From Mesodorylaimus sp. YZB2_4 (taxonomy: Eukaryota > Nematoda > Enoplea > Dorylaimida > Dorylaimidae), in the NCBI GenBank assembly GCA_030248295.1, contig JASANH010000072.1, forward strand, positions 186,001-250,000: a stretch of DNA of 64,000 nucleotides, given 5' to 3'. This document shows, piece by piece, positions 28,397 through 55,864 of the stretch. The position numbers and the translations under genes are program-made. The notes beneath the pieces are model-generated. The model saw only the letters and a list, made by a program, of their open reading frames with translations. It had not been told where the DNA came from and did no database searches. Each line of letters opens with the position of its first letter. Position 1 is the stretch's first letter.

Positions 28397-31300
28397 ATGA
28401 GGAATTTTCATTTGCTGGTGCCATCTGCTATTTTGCTACTTTTTGCATCTGCACAATCTGTCGTGGGAGTATGCTTACTGCAAACACTACTTCTTTGCCC
28501 GCCATCTCCCACTGTGCCAGGAAAGAGAAGTTCCTGTCTAGGGACGGGCTCAGGCTCCACTAAGCCTCGATGTAAGTATTATATTTCCATCATTTCTGAT
28601 GATCAGACAGCCAGTAAGCTGAAACAAATTTTTAGGTGACCCACGCAATTGCGCTAAGCATGATGTGAGCGGGTTAGCCACTTACTTATTCGACGATAAA
28701 TGCTACGGAGTGTTCAATCTGAAGACAACGTGGGAAAATAGCTACCAGAAGTGCAATGACCTTGCTAGCGAATCCAGCCTGGCGATGAGCTACGGCCGAG
28801 CGGCAACATTCACCAACTTCAGCGACTACATCGAAGTCTTGAGCAAAATAATGATACTAGCCAAGGAGGAGGAGGTTCCAGATGGAAAAACAGCCAAGAT
28901 CAATTTAGATAAGCCCATTTGGTTGGGCGCAGGGTCAGTGTCGGGCGGCGACAAAATATCCGACTATTGCTGGATGAGCACGTCGTGCCAAATGGCTTCT
29001 CAAGTTTCGAGTCAGCAGACAAGCATTAAAGTGGCAGCGACGGCGACGCCCTCTTCGCCATCCTGTCTTGCAGTGGATGATATAAAAAAGCCCACAGTAT
29101 TCAAGGGTTTTGATTGCGCTGAGAAACACTTCATGCTATGCGAATTCGGTGAGCATATTGATTTCGATTGAGAAAGTCAGCATGCGCAGCATTCAACTTT
29201 TTAGGTTGCGAAGCTTCTTCTCCTCCTGCGATATGCTCGGCTCCTGAGCAGACCACCACACTTCTGCCACCAGTTGGTACGCAATCTCAGAAGAAATGCC
29301 CTGCTCATGGCGTCTGTGCATTCGACCCATGTAAGGAGCGCGTAACGATTTTTAAAAAGCCTTTGTCCGACTCCTTCTTGGCCTGTGTCATGCCAGCAGA
29401 TTCCACCGCTGGTCGCTGCCCTATAGGCCAAACATCGGCCGGCCCACCGACCCGGCCGAGCCGACTTGCCGATTCGGGCCGGATCGGTTTGGCGGAACCT
29501 ACCCAAGCTGTGGGTCGATCAGATCAAAATTTTGAGTTCCCGCCAAAATCATTTTTTATGGCTTTCGAGTATATCTCCATGCGGGCGGCTAGAATTCCCA
29601 GTTCACCCCACTGTAGTGGCCGCCCATGAATGACATACCAAAGCATTCTGTGTATCCATGGCCGTTCATAGTGCCACAAAATTCGCCACTCGAGCGTAGA
29701 GAGTGGAGAGTAGCACAGTAATCCGCGTAACTCAATATTACCCTGTGCGCTACAGCTACCCCCTGGAGTGCGTTGGAGTAGGTAAAGAATTTACGCGGCA
29801 CTAACGAGCAGGATGTGTTTCCTACCCCCGCACGCTACAGAACCCGTATTTCCCATCTCACTTATTTCTCACCCAGTCTGACCAAAATCTCAGCATCAGG
29901 GTGCAATCTCACAAAGGTCTCGCAAGGTTCTTAGAAAGATCTGCGTCTTAGAAGTAAAGATCTTAGAAAGAGGGCCACCAATGCTGTGCAGGGCACCCTT
30001 GTTCTGACTGACGATGAGATCTAGGTCAATTCTAACCAGGGTCTCTGAGAAAAATGGCAAAGATCTTTGTGAGAAAATGTCATTATGGGGACACGGCTAA
30101 CGGAAACACGCATTTTTTAATTAGCCGAATCTGTGAACAAGGAAGCGCCAGACTATCAATAAGCCTAAGCCTTAGCCTAGGATTAGATAGAAAATGATGT
30201 CATGCAAAAAGAAACGGATAGAACACATCCTGCTCGCTAATGCTGACAAGTTTTTCCGACCACAAATCTGCCCCATCATCTTCGCAATCGCTCACATCAA
30301 TCGATATAAAAGGCTACCACCATAAAAAGTTTATCAACATCACAAAGCATCGTTCGAACGGCGTTGCAATTATTCAGTCGTCATTACCCACTGCCCAAGA
30401 GGAACGTTTTTCCACATTTTAATTTTTTTATCGAAGTTCTTACCGTGGGCTTTTTGCGAATGGTTATCAATTAGTCTGCGGGTCTATGTGCAAATAGTCT
30501 TCGGATTTCAAGCCACAAATAGCTTAGCTTGTTTGCAGTTAAACTAAATTTTTCCATATTGGTGCTGCGCCAACAGAGGTCAGCTAATAACAAACTTGTA
30601 AGCCCTGCCTCTCACGCTTAGTACGCACCCCACTGGCCCGCCCGCCTAACCCACCGGCCTCGTGGCCTGGTGGGTTAGGCGTCTGCCTCTCACGCAGTTA
30701 CGGGCGAGTGTTCGACTCGCGGGCCGGTAGATCATTTCGTGTAAAATGTGTCCCTTCACCCTCGAGTGCGCATAAGCGTTTGGTGATGAGGTAAAACATG
30801 AACATTAGCACTAACAGGGGAGGGATCGATTCCTGCCTGCCTGGGTAAAGTGAAAAATGATTGTCGTATGTGTGCTCCTTCGCCCTCGAGTGCGCTGTGA
30901 CTTGACGAAAACCCAGTTATGTTCGCGTTTTCCTTTTCTTGTTCACGTGAATTATTGTTAGAGTCCAAGATTTTGTTATGCTCATAGGTAACGCCACCGC
31001 GGCATGCGTTGGGGACCAGAACACAATCACCTACATGCACAACGATATCTGCTATGCGATCCGTTTGGACGTGGTGAAACAATGGAAGGAAACGGCTAAA
31101 GATTGTCCGCCTATCAAATACGGATATTCGAGGCCAGCCGTTTTCACTAATACAAGCGACTATCTCACCGTCATTTCAAACCTGAGACAGAAGATGAATG
31201 CGACCAGAACAACCAACAATTTAGTCTGGTTAGGAGCACTTGCTTCTGGCTTGTCTGCACGCCAGCTGTCTGATTTTTGTTGGCGGATTGATGCGACTAC

Positions 31301-34300
31301 AGGCGGATCGCAGGTCACAACAGAGTCAATTCCAGTTAATACGACTCTATTGAAAAGCGGAGACCCGGCTGGTCTCGCTGCTGATCCATTCAACCCATTC
31401 AGTTTTTACGCTGTCAAAGTCGATGACGGAGATGCCGCAAGAAAGTTTCCTATGATTTGTGAATTGGGTAAGGAAATTTTCATCGAAACAGAGTTTCAAA
31501 GGCGACTGTCACTGTTTTGCTGCAGGCTGTGGTTTCACGGAAATCGATTGCCCACTTCCAGCAGTTGATAAAGCATGCGATAACACAGCATGTCCGTTCG
31601 GAGTACCTGAAACCACAACGACATCGACTAGCTCAACGACTCAGACGACCACTGCGAGTGGCACAGCAACACAGAGTCCGCCGCCAACAAGCACATCCAC
31701 CACGACTGTCGCTGATTCCGCAACCTCGACCACTATTGTCACGGCGTCGAGCCCTGCAAAGACTACTACCATTGATCTTACGACCTCTTCGAGTCCTACA
31801 ATGACAGATAGCCCGCCATCAAGAAGCTCCACTTCGAATCTTGCTGATTCCACAGCTTCGACCACTTCAGTCACTTTCTCGAGGCCTTCAAAGACCACAA
31901 CAATCGCGGAAACTATTTCAACAAGTCACTGCACAAGAACGACACCAATCACCTCCACCACCACAACCTCGACCACTTCAGTCACTGCGTCGAGCCCTTC
32001 AAAGACTATTTCAACAAGTCATTGCACAAGAACGACACCAATCACGTCCACCACCACAACCTCGACCATTTCTGTCGCTGCATCAAGCCCTTCGAAGACT
32101 ACTACCATCGCGGACGTACTTTCAACAAGTCATTGGACACGACCGACAACGACATCTTCTACTCCTTCATGTAAGTGACCTGGCCCAGTTTCACCGAGGC
32201 ACTTACAAGTGTTACAAACGCCACAAGTGACAATTTTACGAGAATCCGCCTTTGAAACAAACTTACAAGTTAGAAATGCAAGCGTGAGAGATGCATGCTG
32301 ACAAGGAGCCTGGGAGCCGTCCAGGATGAACACGCTGCAAGTATAGAGAATGCGGGCAACAAGTCACGAGGCTGACCAATGAGCGTCGCACCGCGATTTT
32401 TCTAGCCCTTGTAAAAAAGGAGACTTGTAGAGAGCGAATTGTGAAAGATCGAACCTGGCCAAGCAAATTAGCCAAAATTTAGAAGGCAGCAGCGCATTGA
32501 ATTTTCGGAAGGTGAAGGCGCAAGGTGCTTTGTTAGTTAGGCCCCTTTGCAGGGCGGACAAATTCTGGTTTCCTGCCATCATAATTAGCCTGTCAGAAGA
32601 CGAAAAGAAAGCAATCCATAGTGAAAACACAGGGCGAATATATGAAAACCAGCGATTCTACAGATCTCACAAGCCTCGTTCTGACTCGTAGAAAAAGTCT
32701 CGTAACTCTAGGAGCTGTCACTGTATCATTTTGGTGAAAATCGAGTCGCTTGTGTACTCGTAACTTGTGAGCTTGTAGCTTGTGAAGCGTGTGACTTGTA
32801 TTGCTTGTGACTCGATGAAACCTGGCCCTGGACGAAAAGAGAGTGTCCATCCAACATCACAATCTTTCTAGGTGATGCGGCAGCGGCATGCTCAGCCAGC
32901 TCGTTGCCTAGAGTCCTCTATGGCAACGTCTGCTATGTCTTAATGGGGAACGTGAACTTGTCGTGGGATGCGAGCTACAGCACATGTACTAGCAGAAGCG
33001 CAATTTTCTCCCCTCCAATGGATTATGGTCGAATGGCCGTCTTCTACAACCACACCATGTACACTGACATCATGCAGCAGCTGTACATTGGTTCGAACAA
33101 CAGTGGTCCAGTGTGGCTTGCTGCGCGTACTTCCAACCTAAGCAGCGGAAATGACCTCTCGGAATTCTGCTGGATGAGCAGTCAATCGCAATATGGCTCG
33201 CAGGTCGACCATCGATCTTTGTCTTTAAGCCCTCCGCTGGCGGGACCACCACCCTACTGCCTTTCTGCACGACTTGGAAACCCGCAGCAGTTCATCACAT
33301 CGTCTTGCTCTGAAAATATATCCACACCTATGGTCATATGTGAATTTGGTGAGTGCATCTTATTTGACTAGAATATTCACATGTTTCGAAGGCCTTCTTA
33401 TAGGATGTAATCGACCACAGAATGCCACATGTCCAGGATCGCCAGCTCCAAACTCTGTGTGCAGTGAAGGCTCTTGCAGCATACAACCACCGCTGCCGAC
33501 TACCGCAAGCGTGAGCGACCTTCTATCGTCATCAGCAGCTCCCCCTAGCACTAGAGAAACACCGAGCCCCACATCCTCTGCTGCAAGGTCCAGCTCTCTA
33601 GCTCAAACCTCATCTACATTCAGCACATCCTCCTCAATGACAGTTCCAACTACTTCGACATCAAGTGCGAGCACTGTCCCGACTGCTACGACCTCAAGTT
33701 ATTTAGTTTCGACTTCAAAACCGCGCATTACTTCTTCGACATGTACCCTTTCTCCTGGAACAACAAGAGTACTCCCACTAACCACGTCAAGCTTAGCACT
33801 GGAAGAGTCCAGCATTTCGATCGTTCACTCGACAGCTGCGTCGAGCAAAGCACCCACTCCAACATCGGCACCAACATCAACGACTCCATGGCCGTCTACG
33901 ACTTCACTGAATAGTCTTGCCAGTTCTTCAACTACTACGAGCCTAAATTTGACATCCATTTTGCCCGCCAGCCCCCCAACCATACCTGCGACAACACTGA
34001 ACATTATATCTTCTACAATGACTAATCCACAGACGATCGCGAGTGACAACACTATCAGCACCAGCTTATCCAATTCACCCTCTGTTGCCACAACAACGCG
34101 CCCGCTGGGCACTTCTAGCACGACTTCATCCGCCACAACCTCTCTTGCCCTAACGACTATCGCTGCAGGCACTTCTTCGAGTAGCACGATTTCACCCACT
34201 ACATCTACCAGCGCCACGATGACATCGACTCAAAACCCATCTACTGCGAAATCCACCACCCTACGGCCAGTAACCTCGCCAGCTGCTTCATCAGCGAAAG

Positions 34301-37300
34301 CCACTACATCTATCCCCACGACGTCTTCGCCAGTGGCCACAACTGTCAAATCAACATCGGCACTTACAGGCAGCAGCTCCACGATGACGTGGCCTCCTTC
34401 AACTACACTGATAACTGATCTACCTACTCTAGCTTCGACTGCAACTTCAATCATCGCAACCAGTGAGGCAACAACCCAAACGCCTGCTACAACTGAAACA
34501 GCCTCCACCAGCGAGAAGGGAAGCACTGCAGCAGTTACTAGCATTGCAAGGGTGGCAACGACTTCGCAGCCTGCAACCTCAAAGTCATCACCAGAAACGT
34601 CGACGGAGCGCTCCACTCCACCAAGTACAACAACGCTTGAGACAAGCACAGTGACCCTCAGTGCCACAAGCGTCGACACATCGAGATTGCCTGTCACGAC
34701 AACTACTCCCGATCTCCTCGCTACAGATGCCGCTACATCGAAACGAGGGGTTAAAAGAGTTCGTACCCCTTCGCCGCAGCCTCTGGGCACCACCGGCAGT
34801 AAATTCACTCATGTTTTTCCGACTGAACAGGCGGCGACTACCCTCTTTATCGAAAAAACGTCAGGTGTCACTGCTAGCTTGTCCACTTCCACTGAATCAA
34901 CGAGCCAACTTTCGACTTCAGGCGAATCTTCAACGCTGTCATCAGTTTTCGAGGTCGAAACCTTTGCATCCACTGGTGGTGTCACTGAATCCTTGCTGAA
35001 ATTAGAGTCTGCAGAGACTGATTCCTACATTACATCCGCATTTCCACTCTTAACTTCAACTCCAGCCCGCTCGACCTTTGAAGAGTTGGAAATCTCAACC
35101 AGTGTGGTCAGCACAGCGAAGTCCACACCTGCTGAGACCACCGCAAAAGAGACGATCGAAACAACACATACTGTCTCTTCAGAAAGGAGCAGCACCCTAC
35201 TTCCCTCCACATCAAGAAAATCTTTGACCCCCTTGGCATCGACTCCTGCTTCGACCTTTTCAACGTCTCTTCCTACGACAGAAGAAATCCAAGCTCTTCA
35301 GACATCAAGCAGCGCAGAGGGATCGTCCAAGGAATTTCCCTCACTGAACACTATAGTCAGCACGGTCATCCCCACTTCATCTACTATTTTCCTGAAAACA
35401 AGCAGCAGCATGGCGTCAAGCGCATTTCAAACCACCCCTGCCCAAGCCTCCTCTTCAAAACAAGCTACAATAGTAACAACGCCAACTTCAACACTGTTAC
35501 CCTCTGGCAGCATCTCCGCATCTACGCTCGCCCCTAGCACAAGCTCTGTAGGAACAACAATGCCCCAAACCACAAATGCGACTTCTGCCTCGACATCAGC
35601 AAGCACTGGCCAGATTACAGACCCATCATCTACTAATCTGATCGCAGAGGCAACAATATCATCTTTCACCGCAGAGCCCACAACGCCTACCAACAATCCT
35701 AACACAGCAACCCAAACAGAGTCTACAGTTTTAGAGCAGGAATCCTCAATCATGTATCGAAAAGTTTTAAAAAAACGAAAGACTACTAAATCTGCGGGCG
35801 TCAGCTCGACTGCTTCCCAACCTGTCACAACATTCGATGACAACGCTCCCTATTCAGTTGAGCGTCAGGAAACTACCCAAAAACACACCATGAGTTCACA
35901 GGCGAACATTGACAGCGCGGGTAAAACGTCAAGAAGGCTCCAGAAACTGCCTACGTTTGTTGATGAAATATTCGTCACTGAATTCAGCCCAGACACCACA
36001 ACTCGGCTCCAAGAAACATCCAAAAACACAAGTTCTAGTTTGGTTACTGGCGAAACTATCGCTGAAAGCCAGGATGAGGGCGAAGGCGAAGTCTTACTAG
36101 CGAATGACCTCACAAGAATTAGCCTGAATCAAACAACGACGAGCGTGCAAGAAAAAACTGTGGCTTCAAATCAAGATGAGACATTCAGCTTGCAATTAGC
36201 GACCACCTCGATACCACCCTTAAAAGCAACGAGCCTTGCTCGAGCTGCACTGACTACAGAGAATGCTGCAGCAACTATGGAAATAACGAGCCCGGGCATA
36301 TCTGTGACTACAGCACTTGGGGAACTCACATCATCTGATCTTCCAAGCCCTGAGTTGAGCACACAAAACAGCGACCTAAACAGGGATGATAGAAGGCGAT
36401 CGCAAACAAAGAGTCCCGACAGTACTTACGCTCCAAAAGTCACCATTCTCGCTCCAAGTACTGCAAGGGAAACCTCGTTTTCAATCGTCGAACCGGAGTT
36501 CCTAACTCCCCCCAAGTCCCATAAGTCAACCGGCAAACAATCTGAAGCAACCAAGTTAAAAAGCATAAGCTTATCGCCATTAACGTTGGCTGATACATTA
36601 GAGCGGTCGACCATATCCAGTCTCATGCCATCTACCTTGCAATCGTCAATCAGAACATCAGCATCAAACATCTCATTCGCTGTCAGCTCTCTCACATCAG
36701 TCAAACCTCCCGTCACATCACAGAGCTGGCCAGACGGTTCGTCCAGCAGCATTTCGACAGGCGAGACAAACGCGTCAACAATGAAGAGCTTACGTCCAGA
36801 CAGTCCATCAGTAACGCCGATAAAGACCGAAACAACGAGACCAGGTTTGTTTTCAGCAGCTTACTAGCTTCTCTGCATATTAGATCAGCCAGCTATCATC
36901 AGTCCGCTCAGGCAGCACTGATGTTCCGAGTAGAAAGAAAAAAGATGAAGAAGTTTTTAATGGCAGCATTTAGCATAGTCCATCAAATGCCAAATCTACA
37001 GCAAGTTTTTGGTGAGGACTAAAAAAAATTTTTATCGAAAAACGTTTCTCAGTAACTGGCCGCTAGACAAACATTATTGCAAATGAGTAATCTCGTCGCA
37101 AAACTCCAAAAATTAAATGCGCTTAGAATTTCTGCTGCCCTTAGATGTCTGCCTATCATTGGAATGGGGTCCATGGACGCAGTGCAGCGTAACCTGTGGA
37201 TCAGCCTTCAGAAGCAGAACTCGAAACCGGCTTCCCACTGAAAATGCAACGGTCGAAGACTGCCCCGCTGACTCGCAAGAGGAGCTTTGCAAAGTTCCGC

Positions 37301-38748
37301 CATGTGTAAGTAGCCTTCATCTGCTTGACGTGTCAAAGGGACAAAAATTTAGATACTTGTACTTTGCAGACTCCTTTGACTGAAATCGAGCAAGTGGCCA
37401 CTGACGTGATGATGAATGTGGGCTGCACCTGGATCCTCGTCGGCCTGGGCTGCTCCATTCTCGCATTTCTTGTATTCAGGCGAGTTTTTATCACATAATT
37501 GAAGTGATATTATTGTTATGGCAGTAGCGTTAATTGAACTTTCCAGTGAGATATGAAGGGTGAACAGGTTATTTAGATTTGAACAGGTGCTGAAACCTTA
37601 ACGTTTCCTTTTTCCTTGATAATTACAGTTTGAATGAGTAAAAATTCTTGAGCTAACTCCACTAAATTTTTCAACTGCTGACCTTCTTCAGATCCACCTA
37701 CTACCTGCAAGTTGTGCACGCAAACGAAGACGTCAGTTTGATGGCTGCCCACTTGCTCGTCCTTTTTTTCGCAATGAGAGACGACTCTAAGTTCAGCCAA
37801 GTATGTCCATATTGACCTCTGATGCTAATCTGTTTTCTAGATTTGCGCCGCTTTTCTATTTAGACTGTATGCAAACTTGCTTCGCTGGGTCTGCAATATT
37901 TTTTCACCGTGTGTTACACGTTCAAGGCCCTGGAGGCGCTGCACATTTTCACCGTATTGACAAATGTGGTCATCGGAAACGGCGTCCTCATCAACTTAAA
38001 GATGGCTATGGCATTGGGATGGGGTAAGGCGGGTCGGCTCTTAAGGCCGTCATCGAGACTAATTGCCACTCGTTGCAGGTCTGCCAGCCATCCTGACGGC
38101 CATCACGGGGGCTACTTTGTTCGACAACCTGATGTCTGATTATTCGTAAGCAGTCAGCGTATTCTAATTTGAGCTAGAGCGAGCTGGTCATTCTTAGGTG
38201 TTGGATCAATATTGGAAACACGCCGGCCCTGATGTTGTCAGCATTCCCCATCTGCACCGTTGCTTGGATCACTGTGATCGTTCTGGAAGGGACTGGAAAT
38301 TGGAACGAGTGGAATAAGTCAGACGTAATCAACTCCTGCAAGTAAGGCTTTGTGGCCGCGAGTTTTCCACCCACTTGCAATCAAGCCAACAATCTTTGAA
38401 GGGTGGCCCGGGCTGGATTGGCTCTAGTTTTCTCGGCGCAGTTCATCTCGTGGTTTTTGACCATCCTGGCCATTTATTACCAGCACATTGCGTATTTCAC
38501 AATCGTCTTCGGCATCAACGCAGCTTTAGGAGCATTCATTTTTATGTATCACTTGCTTTCCAATCAAAAGGTAAGCATGAGAATTTTCCTTTCTCTGGTA
38601 CTGAGGGCTCGTTGTAACAAGTTTTTATGAAGTACGAGTATTCTCAAGCTTGACCAATCAAAGAGCCTCAGTGAGAAATGATTCCATGTTTCAGGTCAGA
38701 GCCTTGGTTATAAAAACATTCCGCCACTTTTTTCCAAAAAAGGGATGA
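28397..38748 (+). CDS. Receptor gene A: 3 CTLDs, mucin, TSP1, seven-helix domain
   Basis: Exons: 28397-28571, 28636-29148, 29205-29330, 30988-31467, 31526-32170, 32872-33348, 33404-36844, 37145-37305, 37370-37479, 37692-37800, 37864-38023, 38079-38145, 38198-38341, 38402-38570, 38695-38748; 2276 aa. Order: signal peptide; CTLD1 (about 59-229; CYGVF, WLGAGS, DYCWM, FMLCEF); Cys-rich linker; CTLD2 (272-431); Ser/Thr linker; CTLD3 (647-805); 1147-residue Ser/Thr mucin; TSP1 (1953-2006; EWGPWTQCSVTCGS, SRTRNR); then seven helices with class B/adhesion features: TVCK before helix 3, GWGLPAIL in helix 4, SCWI in loop 2. The tail is FRHFFPKKG. CTLDs lack EPN/QPD and WND, so calcium-type sugar binding is not expected. 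No GAIN/GPS fits in the ~15 residues between TSP1 and helix 1. Intron 9 uses a GC donor (37480). I know no named protein with this order; a surface receptor is inferred. Confidence 0.88.
29331..30987. other. Gene A intron 3 (1657 bases)
   Basis: This separates the Cys-rich linker from the CTLD2 exon. It contains the family A SINE at 30654-30899 close to its 3' end. Around 29430-29545 is a GC-rich stretch with CCGACCCGGCCGAG and TTCCCGCCAAAA words. The rest shows nothing I can name. Confidence 0.6.
30654..30899 (+). repeat. tRNA-Glu(CTC)-like SINE, family A, copy 3
   Basis: The best head of the family is 30654-30727. The acceptor CCGGCCT pairs with GGGCCGG (one G-T). The anticodon stem CTGC/GCAG encloses loop CTCTCAC (anticodon CTC), and the T arm GCGAG/CTCGC encloses TGTTCGA. 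The D region has two extra bases between acceptor and D arm and no clear CCA signal, so it is either a tRNA pseudogene or a young SINE head. Two tail-like CCCTCGAGTGCGC units follow (near 30760 and 30885). Confidence 0.7.
32171..32871. other. Gene A intron 5, no recognisable content
   Basis: 701 bases between the Ser/Thr linker exon and the CTLD3 exon. Short words such as CTTGTGA/ACTTGTAA recur near 32750-32800. No exon, SINE or transposon end is seen. Confidence 0.5.
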
Positions 38749-42308: not shown

Positions 42309-45300
42309 ATGCGTTTTCATCTCGCAATACCATCCACTGTTCCGGTCATTCTCATGACAATTCAATCTATCCAAGGCGCATGCTTATTACCACTGCTTTG
42401 TCCACCGCCCTCCTCTAATCTTACTGCGAAGAGTGCCTGCGCAGGAAGTGGTGCGGGCAAGGACGAAGACAGGCTGTGTATGTATCTTTTCTATTTTACT
42501 ATGCAAAACCAAGCTAACAAAGTCTTGTAGGTAACACGGGATCATGTGCGAAGTACAACAACAATAACATGGTCACGTACCTTTATAACAACAAATGCTA
42601 CGGATTGTTCAATCAAAAGGATACCTGGGCCAACAGCTACACGAAATGTGACAACCTTACCAAGGCATTCATGCCATACATGAATTACGGCCGAGCAGCT
42701 GTTTTCGTCAACTTCAACGACTACATGAAAGTTATTAGCAAAATAAAGATACTAGCTGATGACCAGCCAGTGTCTAACGGCCACAAAGCAGATATCAAAA
42801 TCGATGAGCCCGTCTGGTTGGGCGCCGGGTCTGTCTCAGGCGGGGACACAATATCCGACTACTGCTGGATGAACACGGCATGCAGCATGGGCTCCCAGGT
42901 GTCAGATCAGCAGACAAGTATGCAAGTGCAGACACTGGCGACAAACTCCACACCATCCTGCCTCGCAGTTTCCGACATAGAAAAGCCCGAGGTGTTTGAG
43001 GGCAAGGATTGCAGCGAAAAATATTTCATGCTCTGCGAATTCGGTAACAGAAAGTATTTAATTCTGGAAGTTTTTACGGCAGTGTTATCATTTTAGGTTG
43101 CGATCTGTATTCTCCGCCTCCAACATGCTCAGCTCCTTCGCAGGTCACCACGCCTACGCCATCAAGTGGACAAAATGGTTCTACGGCTCAGACGAAGTGT
43201 CCAGGAACCGAAGTCTGTGCATTCGATCCATGTAAGAGCAGTTGGGTAAGGTTTGCTGTGAGCCCTTTCCTCTGGTCTCGCGCACTGCGATCACTTATCA
43301 GGCACAAATTTCCAACGTACCGCTTGCTCTTCGCTGTAACCAAGTCTAGCAGGCGCGGGAGGGAGGCTGCTGACCGAAGTCGCTGGGACAAAAACTTCGA
43401 CTGGAGCAGGCAAGTCTTGAAAAAAACCTATGGCTGACTGTGCGGGTACCAGCACACACAGCGGGGTCCATCTGCGTTTCTCCACTAGGAGCACCTCCAC
43501 GCGAGGGCATCCTAAACTGGGCACTGATTACTTCGGCCGATGGCGGGTGGGCCCGGGCACCGCCGAGACTGTCTCCTCGTTTTGGCTTCCGTCTCTCCAC
43601 TCGGAGCACCTAAACGGTACCGGGTGAGTCACCCACGGCCTAGCATGCAAGGTCAGCGAGGGTATGTGGTTCGCAAACCAACCTCCATCACCGGGGATCG
43701 AACCCGGGACGAGTCCAGCCACTCGCTCGCAAGCAAAACGGAGAGATAAATGCTGAAACGCTGCACCAAGTCGGTTCTTCTATTCCCTGTTAACCCTCTA
43801 TCTGCATTTGCAACTTCCCCTCCTATTTCACTGATACAGTATTTTGCTGGCAGTCTGCGATTTCCATCTTAAAGAGTACAGTTCGAGTATGTGCTTAGGT
43901 AACGCCGCCGCGGCATGTGCTGGAGATCAAAATACAATCACCTACATGTACAACGACATCTGCTATGCGATCCGTTTGGATGAGATAGATAAGTGGGCGG
44001 AGACAGCCAAAAGTTGCCCGATCCTCGCGAATGGATATTCCAGGCCTGCCGTTTTTAAAAATTCCACAGACTATCTCGATGTCATTACAAATCTAAGACA
44101 AAAGATGAATGGAACCGCACTTGCCAGCAGTCCAGTCTGGTTGGGAGCGCAAACAACGAGTAGTTCTGGCGATCAGCTATCTGATTACTGCTGGATGACT
44201 GATACGGTAACAACTGGATCTCAAGTTACTTCGGGGTCGATTTCCGTCAGCACAACGCTTTTAAAAAATGACGCCAAGACCCCTTTTTTTCTCGCCGCTG
44301 ATCTCTCGCAGCCATTCAACTTTTACTCTGTCGCAGATGACGATGTAAATAAATTTCCTATGATCTGCGAATCAGGTATGTGCAGCTCTCATTGAGACAG
44401 AATCTTTATCCTAAAGGAGTGTCATTTCTTGACTTTCAGGCTGCGGTGCAAAATCGATAAATTGTCCAATCAATCTACTTGCGGGTGCATGTGATGGGAC
44501 AACATGTCCGTTTGGAATTTCTGATACCACGACAAGCCGTAGCACATCTACAAGCAGCACAACAACAACGAGCACACTGCCGACCAGCACGACGACCCGA
44601 AGCATATCCACAGGGAAAACAGCAACAACGAGCCCACTGCCTCAAAGCACATCTAAAAGCAGCGCAACCGCGTCGCACGCGCTGCCGACCAGTACCTTCA
44701 GTGCGAGCCTGACCGATGCCACAAGTCTTAAGGGTTCAACCGCAACATTGAGCACTGCAACGACCACAAGAGCTACAGATAGAATTTCAACGAGTCACTT
44801 CACTAAAGTGACAACTACGGCATCATCAACGCCCACCTCCACGACCACCCCTCCGTCATGTAAGTGAACCGCCTATAGGAAGTTTCCCATCTGATATCAC
44901 TTCATTCACAGGTGACGCCGCAGCGGCTTGTAAGGCTGGCTCGTTCGCCGCAATTCACTACAATAATGTCTGTTATGTCTTGGCGAATCTTGGTTTCTCT
45001 TGGAATGCGAGCTACAGCGCCTGCGTCAGCAGAGAGGCCAGAACATTTTTCTACCCGCCCATGGATTATGGTCGGATGGCCGTCTTCTACAACTACACTA
45101 TGTACAATGACATCATGCAGCAGCTGTACGTCAGGGCAAATAGATCTGGCCCAGTATGGCTAGCTGCAAGTACCTCTAATTGGAGCAATGGAACTGACCT
45201 CTCCGAATTCTGCTGGATGACTAGCCGATCGAAATATGGTTCGCAGGTCAACGATGGATCTTCCTCTCTAAGGCTTTCGCTATCAGAGCCTGCGCCCTAT

Positions 45301-48300
45301 TGCCTCGCAACACAACTTGAAAGTCCACAACACTTTATCTCATTATCTTGCTCTTCAACAGTGTTCACACCCTCTGTCATATGTGAATTTGGTAAGTGCG
45401 AAGGTCCAGGTTTTTGCAGATTGCTTTAAAGAAGCGGAAACGACTTTTTTGTAGGGTGCAATCTCCCGCAAGATGCCGTATGTCCTGGTTCCTCAAGCTT
45501 GAACCCAACGTGTCCAGGAGGCCATTGCAAAATACTACCACCATCGCCAGCGACTGCAAGTATGAGCGAGAGAACAGCCTTTTCCTCAACATTAACACCT
45601 ACAAGTAGTGCAAGGTCGACTACCACCAAAACGCCCACTGTTTCGACTTCCAGCTTTCCTGCTTCAGTTTCGGCTCCAACAAGCACGTCTTCACCAACAA
45701 CAGTTCCAACTAGTACGATGTCAACTACCAGCACGGCGTCTACTGATCGGAGTTCCACCTCTTCAATTACGCCTTTAGCTTCATCTATGAAGTCTTCGTC
45801 CTCGAGTTCAACATCGCCAATCACTTCCTCCTCTGGAACATCAACAACTATTGCACCAACGACGTCTAGTCCCGATTTAGCAGCTCCTACCAGAAGCACA
45901 TCGAGCAAAGCACCCTCGACAACCTCAAAACAGACAGCAACATCGACTGCACGGCAACAGACCTCCAAAGCGGCTTCGACTGAGTCTAGCTCAGCCACGT
46001 CGAGTTTTACATCCCCATACATTTCGACTACAACCACGTCCACCTCAACCACTACACAACCCCTGTCTATTAATAACACCAAAGCCTCAAAAACTACGAC
46101 TGGAAGCACCAGCAGCACAATTCCACCCACTACGACCACCATCACCCTGACAACCGCCTTTCAAAGCCCCACTAGCACGACTTCCTCCACCCGGAAGCCA
46201 ACAACATCGCGAGCTGCTTTATTTGTCAAAGCGGCTCGATCAAGATTCTCCACATCTGCGAGCAATCCGTCCACAACGTCTGGCACCGCATCCACCCTTG
46301 CCAGCAGTTTCTCATCGACCACGCGGCTTCCACTAACCACAGCAGTGATCGGGTCCTCCACATCAACAACTTCATCCACATCGTCAGTCACTATTAGCGG
46401 CACGGAGAAAACGACTCCAACACTGACCACTTCAACGAAAAAAACAACCACTATGCCAACAAAAACATCCCACACTTCGACAGCGACAACAACACCGAGT
46501 ACAATGCTCGCTAGTACTACTGGTACAACGACGATAGCTTCAACTTCAACCGAAGTGACGTCCTCTTTTTCCACAACCACTGAGTCAAAACGTGGAGGGA
46601 TGAGAATTCGAACGCCTTCACCACCGCCACAACACACGACCAGCAGTACTTCGACTCTGCTAACAACTCCAAGTTTGACTACTAGCTCAGCCCCTGCATT
46701 GACTTTCATCACTTATAGTACAATGGCAACTACAACTGCAAGTACAAGCACAACACTGAAGCGGACCACGATGACTGAGTCTTCTAGGCCAGATGAGACA
46801 GCCACCCAGTCATCAACTTCCGAGATCGTACCCTCAACATCCGCATCGACCGAATCAGCTACTGAGGCAGTAGTGGAGGTGACATCCGCAAAGACGGACC
46901 CATCTGTTACAAATATACCCACGACACCAATTATCGTTAGAGTGACTTCTGCTGACATGGAAACCTCGACGAATGCTGTAACTACAGCGGGACTAAGCAC
47001 CACGAAATCGACATCAGCACTGGCAGAAACAACTGCAAGCCCCGCACTGGAAACCATAGTGTCCACATCAACAGGAAGCAGCACCCCAATCTTGTCTAGC
47101 ACAACAACCAGCGATAACAGTGCAATAACGAAATATCGGACGACTACCTCTGCCGATCCGTCCATTATTTTGCCAACCACATCGGCTACAACAAAAACAA
47201 GCAATGACCCTAAGACAACTAGCACGTCTCTAGTTTCGTCCAAGCCAGCCAGCTCAATGGGAACCACAACCAACGAGCCCACTCCCACTCCTACAACACT
47301 ATTATTAGAAGCTAGCAGCAGCACTTGTTCACCGACGAGTGCACTCGATATCTTCGCTGCTGAAACTTCAGAGTTGAATGAAACAACGACAACACTGCTG
47401 CCTGCCACAACTCGTTTGACTTCTGCTATGCTCTCCTCTGGCAGAACTTCTGCAAGTTTAACAATGACTCAAAGCGCATTCGCAACTTTGCCCTCCTCCA
47501 CAGCCTCTACAACTCAAACTACTGAAAATTCCTCTACTGGGCAGCAAATTACAGTGCCAACAACCGAGGTAACCATGAGGCATAACACCATGTTGTCTTC
47601 AACTGTCATACCCACAACTATGACACCTAAAACAACAGTACCCACTACTACTGCGAGACTTACAGCTGCACAGAGCAGCACACCTGACACAACTGAGCAA
47701 CTAACATCTTCTACCATTCATCGAAAAGTCTTTAAAAAACGTGCAACAACTAAACTGTCCACTGTCAGCCCGTCTGTCGCTAAAGCTGATGGAATATCTG
47801 ATAAGGGCGCCACTACTGCAGCTCAGCTGCGGACAACCAGTCCTGAATACACTCCAAGCCTAACGGCCACCATTGATGCTGCAGGCGAAACAGTAGGCAA
47901 GCGAACAAAACATACTTCTGACATGACTGAAAAACTCAATACTAGCACCCCTCGCACCACCCTGCTGGACCAGGCAACATTTGGAGGTACAAATCTCAGT
48001 TTGAAAATCTTTGACATTGCCTCAACGACTGCTGACCGAAATCAAGACGAGGCTGAAGGCAATTTGATAGAAGCACATAAACCCCAAAGCACTTGGTCAC
48101 CTGTTCGACCACAGACAGCGGCCATAATTGTCGATGAAATAGCGGGATTAGCTCCAAAGCGAGAGCAGCCAATCGACCTGCAGCTTACCATAACCCAGCT
48201 TCCTAAACAAACCAACAGCGTTCATTATCTGTCTACGACGGAAGGAGCTGTAGAGACCGGAGTAGATCGAAGGCAGTCATCACCAGTGAGAGCTAAGACA

Positions 48301-51300
48301 ACTCCAAGCCGACAGGGCACTACGAAGGTCGAAAAAACTACTAAAATAAACTCCTCGTCAAACAATGAAACCAGGCCTGATAGCACTCCCAAACGAGAAA
48401 GAACCACAAGCAAAGAGTCCGCAACCACCAGATCACAAATCAGCACCTTACCCTCGACAGCTTTCGCTGAAACATCAAAAAGACTGACGATTTCTAGTCT
48501 CTCGCCATCGTCAACTGAAACAGCATCGAAGTCACGTGTTTCTAGTTCCTCCTCATCCATGAACAGGCCGAGTTCACTAGGGAGCTACCCCAGCACTTGG
48601 TATTCGACTGGTCAGTACCAAGTAGAAAACACGACAGCGACGGCTATGATGAGTGTTAGCAGCTCAATAAAGAACCCTCTGACACCCCGGATCGAGGGGA
48701 CAACAGCCCCAGGTAAGACTATTTGCTGTAAGCTACTGCAGCTTCACCGTACTGTGAAGCAGCAGAGTGAAAGAGTAGTTTTTGACCGCATTCGGAACTG
48801 GGTATGGGCAAAGGGAGAACTATGTACAGTATGTGAGGTCTCTGCCTTAAGGTCTATTCTTTTGTAATAAACGTGGCAGGTGCAGGAAAGACGGTGGCGA
48901 GAAAAACTCTGACTGGAGCAAAGCAAATCTTGCGGCTATAGCTGCGGCTGAAGCATCAGTCCGAGGGGTTGACGTCTCCCAGCCAGGGGAGATCGATAAT
49001 TCTCCCGTTCCCGACATGACGCACCAGGCGCCAGGGTAACATCTTTATAGCCATCTCTGAATTTTATAGACCTTTTAAATCGGCATGCACAGATGTCGAA
49101 GTGCTGCAGCAATGGCAGCATTTTCTTCAATGTGCATTGCACTGTTCATCATCCAAATTTTGAACAAGAAGTTCGTGTTTCTTGACTGTTTCTTAATTGA
49201 AATCGAATTCCAGCCATTTGTAACCTGCCTACTATCTTTCAGGGCACATATCTTTGCCAGATCGTGATCACCTGCTGTAGCTACAGCTGAAGACACCATA
49301 GCACTTACCTATCCCCCTATTGAGGCCGACAAGGCCCCTACCGAAGTGGTTTCTACAGTACTTCTACTTGCTTTTCCAAGCTTCAAACAGTGAGGTTACT
49401 AGTGTGATAAGCATGAAGTACTCTCCGGCCTATCAGCGCACTGGGTGAGGGAATCGGTCTGCCTCTCCTAACAATAAATCAGGACTGGCACAAGACCGAG
49501 GTCGAGGTCTAGTGATTGCTTTGGTTTGTAGGCATTTGTAGAGGACTGGCCTTGCGCTCCTTTTCTGAACTGCTCCATGAACACTCCAGGCTTAGATCTG
49601 TCAGAGCCCCTTTGACGGCTGACGCTTGTGAGTGCTCTCGAAATTGTGAGTCTACACGGCCCTCGTGGTGGTGGCAATAAAGTTAGCGCGAGGTGGCCGT
49701 GGACTGCGTGGGGTCGTTCCTGTGGCTTTAGCCATCCTCTGGTCAGTCCTAGTCTGTCTGTCCTAGGGTGAGCCAAGGATTTCAAGTGTACGGCGACTCA
49801 ATTTCTCAGCTAGAACCTGGGAAATCTTGCTTGGCAGGCTGTAATGGGTGGGATAGCTCTACTGTAGATCAGAGAACGTACCGCGTAGAGCGGATGGTCT
49901 TAAAAAACCTTTAGACAGACCGCGTAGTCACAGGTGCCTGAGACATCAACCCGACGGGTTTCAGCTTGCCCGGAGGAGCGGCCAACGAAGGCAACTGATG
50001 CGTTTTATGTGGCGGCCAGTCAAGGCAACCACATACTGTTCCGTGTATACGGCGGCAAGTTAAGGCAACCAGATACACTAGCTCTCCACCGGCCAAGCAC
50101 GCCTACTACAAGGGACTATAGGACTAAATGTTCAGAAAATGTATTTTGCCTCCAAACTCTCCGGCTGAAGGAAGGCTTATTCGGCGATACAAGGGGACTA
50201 TGTGGCGAGACGGCATAGGGTGCGGGGACCAGTAATGGTAGCTTCAAAGTAGGTAGCTTCATACATGAAACTGATGACAAATGCTATTAATAAATTGCGT
50301 CGCGCAGCTAGAAAAGGCCTTGACTCATCTGCTTCTAGATTTCTGCCTGGCACTGGAATGGGGTACATGGACCTTATGCAGCGTGACCTGCGGATCAGCC
50401 CTGAGAAGCAGAACCCGAAATCGACTGCCCACAGAGAACTCAACGACTGACGACTGTCCAGATGAGTCACAAACGGCAGTTTGCAATGTTCCGCCATGTG
50501 TAAGAATCCATCGTTGACCTTCATATTCCCCGTCGTACTGTCGCCGAATGAAAAGCGGGCATGTTTTATAGACCCCAATGACTAAAGTCGAGCAGGTGGT
50601 GACCAATGTGATGATGAATATTGGTTGCATGTGGATCCTCGTCGGTCTCGGCTGCTCCATTCTCGCCTTTCTTATTTTCAGGTAAGTGCTCACAGTCACC
50701 GAGGTCAAGGTCAGAAGTCTGTCAAGACGCTGATTGATCAGCCCCTTGCCAAAGTTGTCAAGATCAGGGTCAGGCCAAAGGTGAAAAACGCTTGATCTTG
50801 CGAATATTACAGGGGCATTCGAGCTACTGTGTTTCGGGGTGTGATGAGGTGGGATAGAGGACTCATTGTATCAGCTTCCTGCAGTGTTATCAATCTTCGA
50901 AGTAGCTAGAATTTTTCTGCATCAATTTTGTAAGCTCCTTATATTTGCGATTCATGCATATTACATTTGTAATACAGATCGACCTACTACCTGCAAGTTG
51001 TTCATGTCAACGAAGACATCAGCCTGCTGATCGCCCATGTGCTCGTTCTATTTTTCGCCATGAGAGATGACTCCAAGTTCAGCCAAGTATGCATGTGCTA
51101 ATCGTGAATGACCAAATCTATTCTTGAATTCGGCTTCTTTCTAGACCATGTGCAAAGTAGCCTCGTTGGGTCTGCAGTATTTCTTCACAGTCTGTTACAC
51201 GTTCAAAGCACTGGAAGCGGTGCACATTTTTACTGTTTTGACCAATGTGGTGATGGGAAAGGGCGTATGGATCAATTTGAAAGTGGCGATGGCCTTGGGT

Positions 51301-52396
51301 TGGGGTATGGCGATTAGCTGTTCAATGTGCCAGTAACTTCACATCACCCCATATAGGACTGCCGGCCATCCTGACGGCCATCACGGGCGCCGCATTGTTC
51401 GATAGCCTGATGTCTGATTATTCGTGAGTTTTTGTGTCGTGACTGCGTTCACAGGGAGTAGGTCAGTCTCGTTTAGGTGTTGGATCAACATCGCCAACAC
51501 ACCGGCCCTCATGCTGTCAGCAGCTCCCGTTTGCACTATCGCTTGGGTCACTGTAATTGTTCTGGAAGGGACTGGGAGTTGGAGCGAGTGGAATAAGTCA
51601 GATGTAATCAATTCCTGCAAGTAAGTCTTTGTGATCGCCATTTTTCTTCCTTCCCAATCAAGCCAGCGATCGTTACAGGGTGGCCCGTGCTGGACTGGCT
51701 TTCGTCTTTTCGGCGCAGTTTGTCTCGTGGTTTTTGACTTTCCTGGCCATTTATTACCAGCATGTTGCTTTTTTCACGATTGTATTCGGGATCAACGCAG
51801 CCCTCGGCGCATTTATATTCATGTATCACTTGCTATCTAATCAGAAGGTTAGCTAATTTATGAATTTCTGTAAGCTTAGGCCTGGCATTGAAAAGTCAAA
51901 TGAAACCTCATATGTTTTCTCAAAAAATTTTTCTATGAAGCAGGTTTTTGCCAAATAAAACAAGCAATCAATCCGCAAGCTGAGAAAACTTGATCGAAAG
52001 TCTCGATTTTGAAATTCCGCAAAAACCAAGAGCCCGCAGACAAGCTTTACTGCGGCCGCTTAGATCACAACTCTGAAATCCTGTAGACCGTACGTAGCAT
52101 AATTAGAAGTCGAATTTTAACCAGGAGAAAATCCAATCGAATCAAAAGATATCTTTCGGGGACCTGGGAAGGGCCTGAAAATAAAACGCAATGCTGGATT
52201 TTGAAGGAAGTTAATGACATTAGATTCGATTGGAAATCTAATTTTTCTCTCGACGTGATGGTCTAGTACGGCCCTCGATGTTACACATTAGTGGCCGTTT
52301 TTACACGGAGGCTCACATGCTTATGACGGCTTTACTTTTCAGGTCCGAGCCCTGGTTGTAAAGACATACCGCCGTTGTTTTCCGAAAAAGGGATGA
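42309..52396 (+). CDS. Receptor gene B: tandem paralogue of gene A
   Basis: Exons: 42309-42477, 42531-43043, 43097-43231, 43899-44375, 44440-44859, 44912-45391, 45455-48712, 50339-50499, 50572-50681, 50978-51086, 51145-51304, 51357-51423, 51477-51620, 51679-51847, 52343-52396; 2141 aa. The exon count and every phase match gene A, and exons 8-15 have identical lengths. Domains: signal peptide, CTLD1 (WLGAGS, DYCWM, FMLCEF), linker ending CAFDP, CTLD2, Ser/Thr linker (shorter than in A), CTLD3 (MDYGRMAVFYN shared with A), 1086-residue mucin, TSP1 (EWGTWTLCSVTCGS), seven helices and tail YRRCFPKKG. The mucin is poorly alignable with A except for basic islands at 46585-46620 (SKRGGMRIRTPSPPP) and 47722-47742 (RKVFKKR). 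Intron 9 has a normal GT donor. It is probably a cell-surface receptor with a heavily O-glycosylated stalk; the ligand and signalling route are unknown. Confidence 0.88.
43452..43770 (-). repeat. tRNA-derived SINE, family B, copy 1
   Basis: Read on the minus strand, a head TGGTGCAGCGTTTCAGC with B-box GGGTTCGATCCCCGG is followed by a body with AGGTGCTCCGAGTGGAGAGA and AACGAGGAGACAGTCT. The same order is at 53511-53800 in the other orientation. It lies in gene B intron 3, just before the CTLD2 exon. Confidence 0.8.
48943..49040 (+). repeat. Recurrent ~65-base module, copy 6
   Basis: GCGGCTGAAGCATCAGTCCG, GGGTTGACGTCTCCCAGCC, AGGGGAGATCGATAATTCTC and later CACCAGGCGCCAGGG, as in copy 3. Confidence 0.8.
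49403..49784 (+). mobile_element. Diverged BEL-type solo LTR
   Basis: This aligns end to end with the LTR at 61971-62350 (opposite strand). It starts TGTGATAAGCATGAAGTACT, ends GAGCCAAGGATTTCA, and shares TTGTGAGTCTACACGGCC and CGTGGACTGCGTGGG. An AATAAA is at 49676-49681. AGTG occurs at both 49401-49404 and 49785-49788, but using it as the target duplication would trim two bases from the LTR end, so the boundary is uncertain. No internal retroelement sequence adjoins it. Confidence 0.8.
49933..50105 (+). repeat. Recurrent module copy 7 with shared flank
   Basis: GAGACATCAACCCGACGGGT begins the module, which is truncated after ~50 bases. It is followed by two tandem units with GGCAAC...AGATACACTA and the segment shared with 39165-39235 (GCCAGTCAAGGCAA; CCAAGCACGCC). 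Confidence 0.65.
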
Positions 52397-53800: not shown

Positions 53801-53823
53801 TATCTCACACAGCATGTGCTTAG

Positions 53824-55864
53824 GTAAGGGCACCGCGGCATGCGTTGGAGACCAATATACAATCACGTACATGTACAGCAACATCTGCTATGTTATCTGC
53901 TTGAACAAGCAAGATAAGTGGGAGAAGGCAATAAAGCATTGCCAGGACTTGACGAAGACCTACGAATATGCATATTCCCAGCCTGCTGTTTTCAAGAACA
54001 CCGATGACTATCTCAACGTCATGGCGAATCTGAAAGAAAAAATAAGCAAAGACAAGCTTGCTGCCAGTCTGGTTTTGCTGGGAGCGAAGGCAACTTCTGG
54101 TTTCGGCACGAAGCTGACTGATTACTGCTGGATTATTAATAAGAACACTTTTGGATCCCAGGTTACAACGATGCCTATCTCAGTCAACACAACGTTCTTA
54201 AAAACAAACGCCAATGCCCCTGTTTATCTCGCCGCTGACCTTTCGCAACAATTCAATTTTAGCTCTCTAGGGAAAGATGACGAAATTCCAGTGATCTGTG
54301 AATTAAGTAAGTGTTAGTTCTCATCGGGGCAATCCTTATCATTGCGTCAATTACTTTCCGACTGCAGGCTGCGGGTACAAATCAATTGATTGTCCACCCT
54401 CCCCACTCGCGAGTGGATGTGACGGCACTGCTTGTCAATTCGGAATTTCTGATACCACCACCACATCGACTAGCACAACGTCCCGTAGCACATCTGCGAG
54501 CAGCTCCACAGCAACGAGCACACTGCTAACCAGCACGACAACTTAAAGCACATCAGCAACAAGTGCACCAACTGCAACAACAGCATTAACGAAGGATACA
54601 AACCACACCAGCGCGACTTTGTCGACAACCCCCATGAACGCCCCAACGAGCTTCCCTGAATGCACTACCAGCACCATTTCAACCACTCCCAAGGTCACTA
54701 CTATTTCAGAAACCAAAGCGCTTCCACCTAGCATTACACCAACTGCCTCATATTCGCCCCCAGCTGAAGCAAGCACATCAACTCTTCCGAGCAACAGCTC
54801 CTCATTATCCTCAATCTGGATTCTGCCAACCACAACTTTGTCGCAGCGATCATCCTCCACGATGCCATCCACAACTCCAGTCACTACGGGTGAAGAGACA
54901 ACAGCCACAAGCGCAACAATGCGAGCTACCACCGAGTCATATTCCGCAAGCAACGCCACGACAACCACATTTCTAACGATAAGCCAAAACAGCACGACTT
55001 CATCAACTTGCAGCACAAGCGCTGCAACGACTGTCGTGTTAAGCGCCACAACAATTTTGCCTCAGAAAATCACAGCACTCTCCAGTACCACCAGTGCAAC
55101 TTTCTCTTCTATTCCCGTGGCAACTACGTCAGAAGGAGTGACTCAAAGGCCTCCATCACAACCGACACAGACAACCAGTGGTACTTCCACTCCTCTGCCA
55201 ACTTCATTCTTGACGACCCTCTAAACTAGCGCAGCGATAGAGGCGTCTTCGTTCACAACGATGTCGATAGGTACAAGCACAGGCAAACTCACGAAACAGA
55301 TTACGATCAGTCAATCCCCAACTACGTATGAGGCCACAACCCAATCATCTGCCCATACACCAACACTCCTGACCACAATGTCAATCTTCTCCATAAGCTC
55401 AGCATCTGCGATGTCTTGGCCCGAAACGATAATGACGAGCACAAGTACTGAAGCGCCCACAAAGCAGACCACGATAAGCTGGTCTTCGACTTCAAGTAAT
55501 CTCACATCCCCTTCGTCTTCTATAGGAGTCCCACCTTCCTCCGGCAGTTCGACCACAGTTCCGACGGAACAGTCGATGGAGGAGGTAGAAACGTCGACTC
55601 CGTCTTTCCAATATTCACCCGCAACTTCAACCACCACCATGCTGACTTCTGAGCAGATAAGAACCTCCACGAGTCTTGTGACTAGAGCCACTCCAAACAT
55701 CATGCCATCGAAATCGACAGAAGCAGAAACAGCTGCTGGTCGTACACCTATGTCCACATCAAAAGAAAGCAGTGTCCCAGTCGGTCTGGGCACAACATTT
55801 AAATATTTGTCCACTCCAGCTGTCGATACATCGGCTTCCAGCCTGTTCACTTCCTCGTTCCTGC
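53824..55864 (+). pseudogene. Receptor gene C remnant: CTLD2 plus mucin, broken
   Basis: Third, partial copy of the receptor. The exon 53824-54306 matches exon 4 of genes A and B (CTLD2: NTITYM-like start, VFKNTDDYLNVM, DYCW, FNFSS, ICEL). Exon 5-like sequence starts at 54368 (Cys-rich start, then Ser/Thr mucin) and stays in one frame to 55864. It is broken by in-frame TAA codons at 54544 and 55222, and then by the BEL/Pao-type LTR beginning at 55865. No CTLD1, CTLD3, TSP1 or membrane exons are seen up- or downstream. The donor after CTLD2 and its acceptor remain intact, so loss of function may be fairly recent. Confidence 0.8.

Follow-up and report, generated by a model that had tools for sequence, protein, structure and literature searches.

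The question raised by this locus is whether a single nematode gene encodes C-type lectin-like domains (CTLDs), a mucin-like stalk, a thrombospondin type 1 (TSP1) repeat and seven transmembrane helices (7TM), and what kind of receptor such a protein would be. The locus, gene 1, lies at positions 28397-38748 on the forward strand of a 64,000 nucleotide window of the Mesodorylaimus sp. YZB2_4 genome (contig JASANH010000072.1, positions 186,001 to 250,000); the window is the whole stretch of DNA that was analysed, and its contig is called C83 here. A first-pass annotation had proposed 15 in-phase exons and a 2276-residue protein, both of which were reproduced by independent splicing from the sequence; the introns are GT-AG in 13 cases and GC-AG in one, that following exon 9. 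The order of signal peptide, three CTLD-like modules, Ser/Thr-rich stalk, one TSP1 repeat and adhesion-class 7TM was also confirmed, the TSP1 and 7TM parts by profile matches and the CTLDs through a family profile. With moderate confidence we read gene 1 as one gene for a giant adhesion-class 7TM receptor in which sequence searches detect no GAIN domain and which belongs to a tandem family, in which the lectin-like heads would bind, TSP1 would couple binding to the helices, and the copies together would form a contact-sensing or recognition repertoire.

Gene 1 is not the unique gene that it was first taken to be, as a second full copy (gene 2) is present in the same window. All 15 exon lengths differ between the two genes by multiples of three, and the eight exons from TSP1 to the stop codon are identical in length. 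In the outermost 20 bases at either end of the exons 459 of 600 positions are identical (77%), whereas the adjoining intron flanks, compared with 6 bases left out at each junction, agree at 89/280 and 110/280 positions (32-39%). In the TSP1-7TM part, gapless repeats found without the gene model stop no more than 26 bases from the predicted exons. The GC donor of intron 9 in gene 1 is at window position 37480, where the gene 2 counterpart reads GTAAGT. From TSP1 to the C-terminal end the two proteins are 84% identical, loops included. Omega values between the copies (Nei-Gojobori), which are rough because synonymous distance is high (0.6-2.7), rise from 0.08 in the helices through 0.16 in TSP1, 0.19-0.21 in the CTLDs, 0.20 in exon 1 and 0.28 in the first mucin segment to 0.42 in the main stalk and 0.58 in exon 3, the short linker. 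Genes 1 and 2 are under purifying selection. Because the tandem copy shares the 15-exon structure, conservation at the exon edges and purifying selection, the architecture of gene 1 is more than a product of chance.

The membrane-proximal half of the protein is readily classified. The TSP_1 profile matched with E 8.2e-10 (39.2 bits against a cut-off of 21.6) and 7tm_2 matched the post-mucin part with E 2.9e-14. When the 7TM part was searched against PDB, all 16 sequences at E<=1 were adhesion G protein-coupled receptors (GPCRs), ADGRD1 being the best at 8.1e-13, which bears out the class B/adhesion-like membrane domain proposed at first. The hydropathy plot gave a signal peptide and clear peaks for transmembrane helices (TM) 1, 5, 6 and 7, with TM3 and TM4 in one merged run; TM2 is below the 1.4 threshold, so the count of seven helices rests on the homology match and not on the plot. 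The main stalk comprises 1121 residues, 479 of them Ser or Thr (42.7%), with 7.6% Pro and 2 Cys. In total the extracellular region has about 2000 residues and carries both CTLD-like modules and TSP1, the long ectodomain of an adhesion GPCR.

The part expected between ectodomain and helices was not detected. About 16 residues, TPLTEIEQVATDVMMN, link the end of TSP1 to TM1. No GPS or GAIN match was obtained in the TSP1-7TM part or in the mucin exons of both copies, exon 7 of genes 1 and 2 had no Pfam match at E 0.05, and HRM had none in the post-mucin part of gene 1 or in exon 7 of either copy. In the available text of one source, GAIN together with its tethered agonist sets adhesion receptors apart from other GPCRs, the agonist consensus is given as TxFAVLM, and the GAIN/7TM module is placed in most but not all holozoan adhesion receptors (PMC12716839). 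By inspection this peptide is absent from the TSP1-TM1 linker of genes 1 and 2. The genome has eight GPS matches, none on C83 or on C39, the second contig rich in family members, and two canonical adhesion-type genes were found (on C58 and C72). HLTTFAVLM is present at two of the eight GPS matches (loci L001 and L002).

Identification of the heads depends on comparison of the family as a whole. A profile of 33 family domains had 21 matches in PDB at E<=10, all C-type lectin-like chains by name, with a best whole-sequence E of 5.9e-4; in two alignments that were inspected the N- and C-terminal pieces are in register. With hhalign, comparison to seven Lectin_C domains from this genome gave E 1.4e-5 and a probability of 79.8% over 109 columns. 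Several results weigh against the assignment. Single CTLD exons had no match in Pfam, the gene 1 pieces remaining without a CTLD family match at thresholds up to E<=10, and Lectin_C was matched by one of the 33 domains (E 0.0063). Most PDB matches are confined to the first 25-35 positions; in the best match, the best single stretch has E 0.08. The searches are negative for nearly all single sequences and positive for the 33-domain profile, though weak per stretch, and for hhalign; on this comparison exons 2, 4 and 6 likely encode CTLD modules, although this is not proven. EPN/QPD and WND are motifs of calcium-dependent sugar binding in C-type lectins. EPN, QPD and W[ND]D occur in 0 of the 33 CTLD-like heads, so "lectin-like" should not be read as "sugar-binding", and from the motifs the usual calcium-dependent sugar binding by the heads is not expected. 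Here too there is a counterweight, in that the motif test discriminates only in part: among the seven Lectin_C control domains EPN was found in 1, QPD in 0 and W[ND]D in 4.

The extent of the family was determined by searching the window's own genome (145 Mb in 1067 contigs). The TSP1-7TM piece had 165 matches and the CTLD1-CTLD2 piece 75, and the TM3-TM4 exon was found in at least 51 places among the matches listed, 38 of exon type and 13 in single long frames. Using a rule of our own, 82 of the 165 and 58 of the 75 matches were grouped on eight contigs into at least 28 gene-like units with helices, 25 of which have a CTLD match ahead of the helices on that strand, while 15 have a TSP1 match. 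Among the matches listed, C83 has 10 units (CTLD in 8, TSP1 in 10), C39 has 10 (CTLD in 9, TSP1 in 4) and the other six contigs have 8 (CTLD in 8, TSP1 in 1). Long mucin-like frames recur in other members, with 1344 residues (L041) and 1545 residues (L068), and frames of 1151-1185 residues follow three CTLD3 copies on C39. In a tree of 33 CTLD-like domains, of which 17 are unlabelled and for which bootstrap values are not fully settled, the 7 CTLD1, 6 CTLD2 and 3 CTLD3 domains each form one supported group. As each type groups across genes, the triple layout probably predates these gene duplications. Counting against a uniform family, the full order is not universal, 3/28 units having no CTLD match and 13/28 no TSP1 match (unless short exons escaped detection); three units, of 41, 18.6 and 17.4 kb, may be neighbours joined by the grouping, and in one unit there are two sets of helix matches.

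Coordinates of the receptor genes in the window and of a third-copy fragment
Feature	Window position	Strand	Description
Gene 1 exon 1	28397..28571	+	start codon, signal peptide (hydrophobic peak residues 10-28), short Cys-containing linker
Gene 1 exon 2	28636..29148	+	CTLD-like module 1 (profile and hhalign)
Gene 1 exon 3	29205..29330	+	short Cys linker
Gene 1 exon 4	30988..31467	+	CTLD-like module 2 (profile and hhalign)
Gene 1 exon 5	31526..32170	+	first S/T-rich mucin-like segment; 93-nt duplicated unit (31912-32097)
Gene 1 exon 6	32872..33348	+	CTLD-like module 3 (profile and hhalign)
Gene 1 exon 7	33404..36844	+	short Cys linker, then giant mucin-like stalk
Gene 1 exon 8	37145..37305	+	TSP1 repeat (TSP_1 match)
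Gene 1 exons 9-15	37370..38748	+	adhesion-class 7TM (7tm_2 match), cytoplasmic tail of about 20 residues
Gene 1 exon 9	37370-37479	+	7TM part
Gene 1 exon 10	37692-37800	+	7TM part
Gene 1 exon 11	37864-38023	+	7TM part
Gene 1 exon 12	38079-38145	+	7TM part
Gene 1 exon 13	38198-38341	+	7TM part
Gene 1 exon 14	38402-38570	+	7TM part
Gene 1 exon 15	38695-38748	+	7TM part
Gene 2	42309..52396	+	tandem paralogue, 15 exons, same phases, 2141 aa, same domain order
Gene 2 exons 1-4	42309-42477, 42531-43043, 43097-43231, 43899-44375	+	
Gene 2 exons 5-8	44440-44859, 44912-45391, 45455-48712, 50339-50499	+	
Gene 2 exons 9-12	50572-50681, 50978-51086, 51145-51304, 51357-51423	+	
Gene 2 exons 13-15	51477-51620, 51679-51847, 52343-52396	+	
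Third-copy fragment	53808..54323 (C83:239808-240323)	+	lone CTLD2-like exon

On genomic sequence and paralogue comparison, a single predicted gene for the whole CTLD-to-7TM protein is well supported, because the paralogues share exons and domain order. The alternative is that two neighbouring genes are present, one for a secreted CTLD-mucin protein that stops shortly past exon 7, the other for a TSP1-7TM receptor of its own, which in gene 1 would start from the ATG at 37117, shortly ahead of the TSP1 exon. Exon 7 of gene 1 is indeed open to a stop a few codons beyond its donor, a short hydrophobic run lies at the ATG of gene 1, and two units on C83 have TSP1 and TM matches without CTLD matches. 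The mucin-to-TSP1 join was compared in seven distinct genes (both window genes, three others on C83 and two on C39). An in-frame ATG between the last stop and TSP1 exists in four of them and is absent from three, and the four leaders look mutually unrelated, whereas the AG acceptor before the TSP1 core is in the same place and phase in 7/7 genes (a stricter pattern found 5). In one C83 member (L028, C83:378975-382160) the mucin end and TSP1 share one open frame (2062 aa, with a match at C83:379868); the intron before TSP1, 300 bases in gene 1 and 1626 in gene 2, is short or absent there. Reading past the exon 7 donor gives a different tail in each copy, which fits intron sequence, and homology between genes 1 and 2 drops at the splice sites. 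With three of the seven genes lacking the ATG and one member open from mucin into TSP1, the four ATGs do not alter our estimate, and we regard two separate genes as improbable. A pseudogene, or a misassembly that brought unrelated genes together, might be suspected from the broken copy close by and the retrotransposon-type frame downstream of it (described below), but two intact copies in the window are under selection and the same order recurs elsewhere on C83 and on C39, leaving this explanation with almost no weight.

Two further explanations accept a single gene and differ about what it encodes. The main rival is a membrane-tethered coat, in which the protein would anchor a lectin-mucin glycocalyx and the 7TM part would be a non-signalling anchor. 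The very long mucin-like stalk, the short cytoplasmic tail and the lack of a visible tethered agonist would all suit such a role. However, the 7TM part is the most constrained part of the protein (its omega against that of the main stalk, and identity that includes the loops), and as drift is what one would expect of a mere anchor, this constraint counts against the coat, which we consider unlikely, if still deserving of attention. It could also be that gene 1 is an ordinary adhesion GPCR whose GAIN/GPS region was missed, either through divergence or because it is hidden within the mucin exon. Such domains are large and tend to diverge, and Pfam misses the CTLDs here as well. Yet the two cysteines of the stalk are too few for the usual GPS cysteines, exon 7 is without a Pfam match in both copies, GPS was detected elsewhere in the genome, including the canonical genes, while being absent from C83 and C39, and TSP1 immediately precedes TM1. 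A missed GAIN domain is in our view very improbable.

In the favoured reading of a GAIN-less receptor, the CTLD heads would bind surface ligands, whether proteins or glycans, by means other than the usual EPN/QPD/WND calcium site. The stalk, O-glycosylated if its composition is a guide, would keep the heads far from the membrane, and TSP1, in the usual place of GAIN, would pass binding or pull to the helices; we propose that this position would allow activation without autoproteolysis. Copies with fast-evolving stalks and conserved helices may form a contact-sensing or recognition repertoire with one signalling output, and the contrast between strongly constrained helices and loose stalks agrees with signalling that is shared and reach that varies. 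The rigid antenna with signalling through the helices, put forward in the first-pass annotation, may describe the protein, and the receptor family may sense surfaces. That no sign was seen of the self-cutting domain that such receptors typically have suggests an unusual mode of doing so.

Among known systems, ADGRB/BAI shares TSP1 and an adhesion 7TM with gene 1. The BAI layout is TSP1 repeats followed by HRM and GAIN. Gene 1 differs in having one TSP1 directly before TM1, no HRM/GAIN match and CTLD-like heads. The portion seen of a 2026 adhesion GPCR review mentions thrombospondin domains for ADGRB/BAI, and C-type lectin was not found in that portion (PMC13197933). Some amphioxus Adhesion GPCRs have Lectin C-type domains and many have GPS; they resemble gene 1 in carrying a C-type lectin domain N-terminal to an adhesion-class 7TM, while the many GPS sites set them apart and no CTLD-mucin-TSP1 order or tandem family is described in the sections available (PMC2246102). 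Within nematodes, Bursaphelenchus xylophilus Bu_11124 combines two CTLDs, GPS and a latrophilin-like 7TM, and thus shares CTLDs and an adhesion-type 7TM with gene 1. It differs in its GPS, and in the accessible part of the report it is described as one protein, with mucin stalk and TSP1 unmentioned (PMC9085898). Sponge receptors are comparable in having 7tm_2 without GPS (12 of 40), but some of their N-termini are short and incomplete models are possible, as far as the excerpt consulted goes (PMC4302439). The CTLD-mucin-TSP1-7TM order was not found in the section consulted of a nematode GPCR review (PMC11943259), nor in the literature searched, which covers few subscription journals or preprints. 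The claim that no described family has this order therefore holds for the order itself within that literature, whereas the pairing of CTLD with an adhesion-type 7TM was already published for amphioxus and Bursaphelenchus. What is known is a CTLD on an adhesion 7TM; what was not found in that literature is the predicted GAIN-less order as a tandem family.

GAIN with its tethered peptide is treated as a hallmark of adhesion receptors in the text available from PMC12716839. A large natural family with an adhesion 7TM that has TSP1 or EGF immediately ahead of TM1 would offer a natural experiment in the switching of such helices with neither GAIN nor the peptide. It would also show a nematode expansion of an adhesion-type receptor class. 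In C. elegans adhesion GPCRs number only about three, and rhodopsin-like families serve as chemoreceptors. We put forward only tentatively the broader possibility that a nematode lineage holds tens of clustered GAIN-less CTLD-mucin receptors with variable heads, acting as contact chemoreceptors or recognition receptors for surfaces of microbes, hosts or mates, in which TSP1, or EGF in the sister group, would replace GAIN as mechanical coupler with neither autoproteolysis nor a tethered peptide. A search of the genome for Srh gave one weak match below its cut-off, and Srsx gave at least 150, possibly including other rhodopsin-like receptors; these counts argue against a Caenorhabditis-like chemoreceptor set. 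As the Srsx matches indicate that other chemoreceptor-like genes exist, the idea that the new family replaces other chemoreceptors is not supported. The Col_cuticle_N collagen family, which marks nematodes, had 133 matches, and a tardigrade origin considered at first was set aside on that count.

Relatives with EGF were seen in long frames on contig C1 (L009, L043; C1:2478663-2483800), in the order CTLD-EGF-CTLD-EGF-CTLD-like-EGF-7TM. One Lectin_C match there is over the cut-off and a second just under, one EGF repeat is over the cut-off, and the 7TM is 24% identical to the TSP1-7TM query. A single gene here is putative; the frames may represent a second architecture of lectin-type receptor in which no GAIN is recognised. 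C253 carries a similar EGF-7TM frame (L074, C253:1-6500) preceded by a Lectin_C match, its helices being related to gene 1 by homology search yet without a 7tm_2 match at E 0.05. Like gene 1, these intron-poor loci have CTLD modules, no GPS match and a related 7TM (24-26% identity); unlike gene 1, they have few introns and EGF-like repeats replace TSP1 before TM1. A further locus on C78 (L042) combines two Lectin_C pieces with a stretch rich in Thr and a match to 7tm_2. With no GPS match at any of these loci on C1, C253 and C78, this genome may hold GAIN-less lectin-type receptors more widely.

Three of the 7TM relatives lie less than 1 kb from contig starts (L074 on C253, L075 on C130 and L076 on C885), the EGF-type frame being seen in L074. 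Over the first 1600 bases C130 and C885 are 98% identical, and C253 and C130 91%. A subtelomeric location of the intron-poor relatives was considered and set aside, since no telomere repeat is evident at the three contig starts and repeat collapse is as likely. Elsewhere, C21:899552-951506 contains 38 Lectin_C matches among the matches listed, all on the forward strand, a dense and separate CTLD cluster.

In the window itself, no TSP1 or 7TM match lies between the third-copy fragment and the window end among the matches listed. Downstream of that exon, an open reading frame at 55884-57062 matches DUF1759 (E 2.7e-26) and has zinc knuckles by eye, as in the BEL/Pao retrotransposon type. Upstream of the receptor genes, a ubiquitin carboxyl-terminal hydrolase domain is found at 17584-18162 (UCH E 8.1e-23). 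Finally, a near-complete mitochondrial COX1 with an ND4-like frame downstream by eye lies inside a long contig (L069, C73:251816-256168). It is open only with TGA as Trp, and AGA/AGG are Ser under code 5, which fits a nematode (other codes were not compared); it is perhaps a nuclear copy of mitochondrial DNA.

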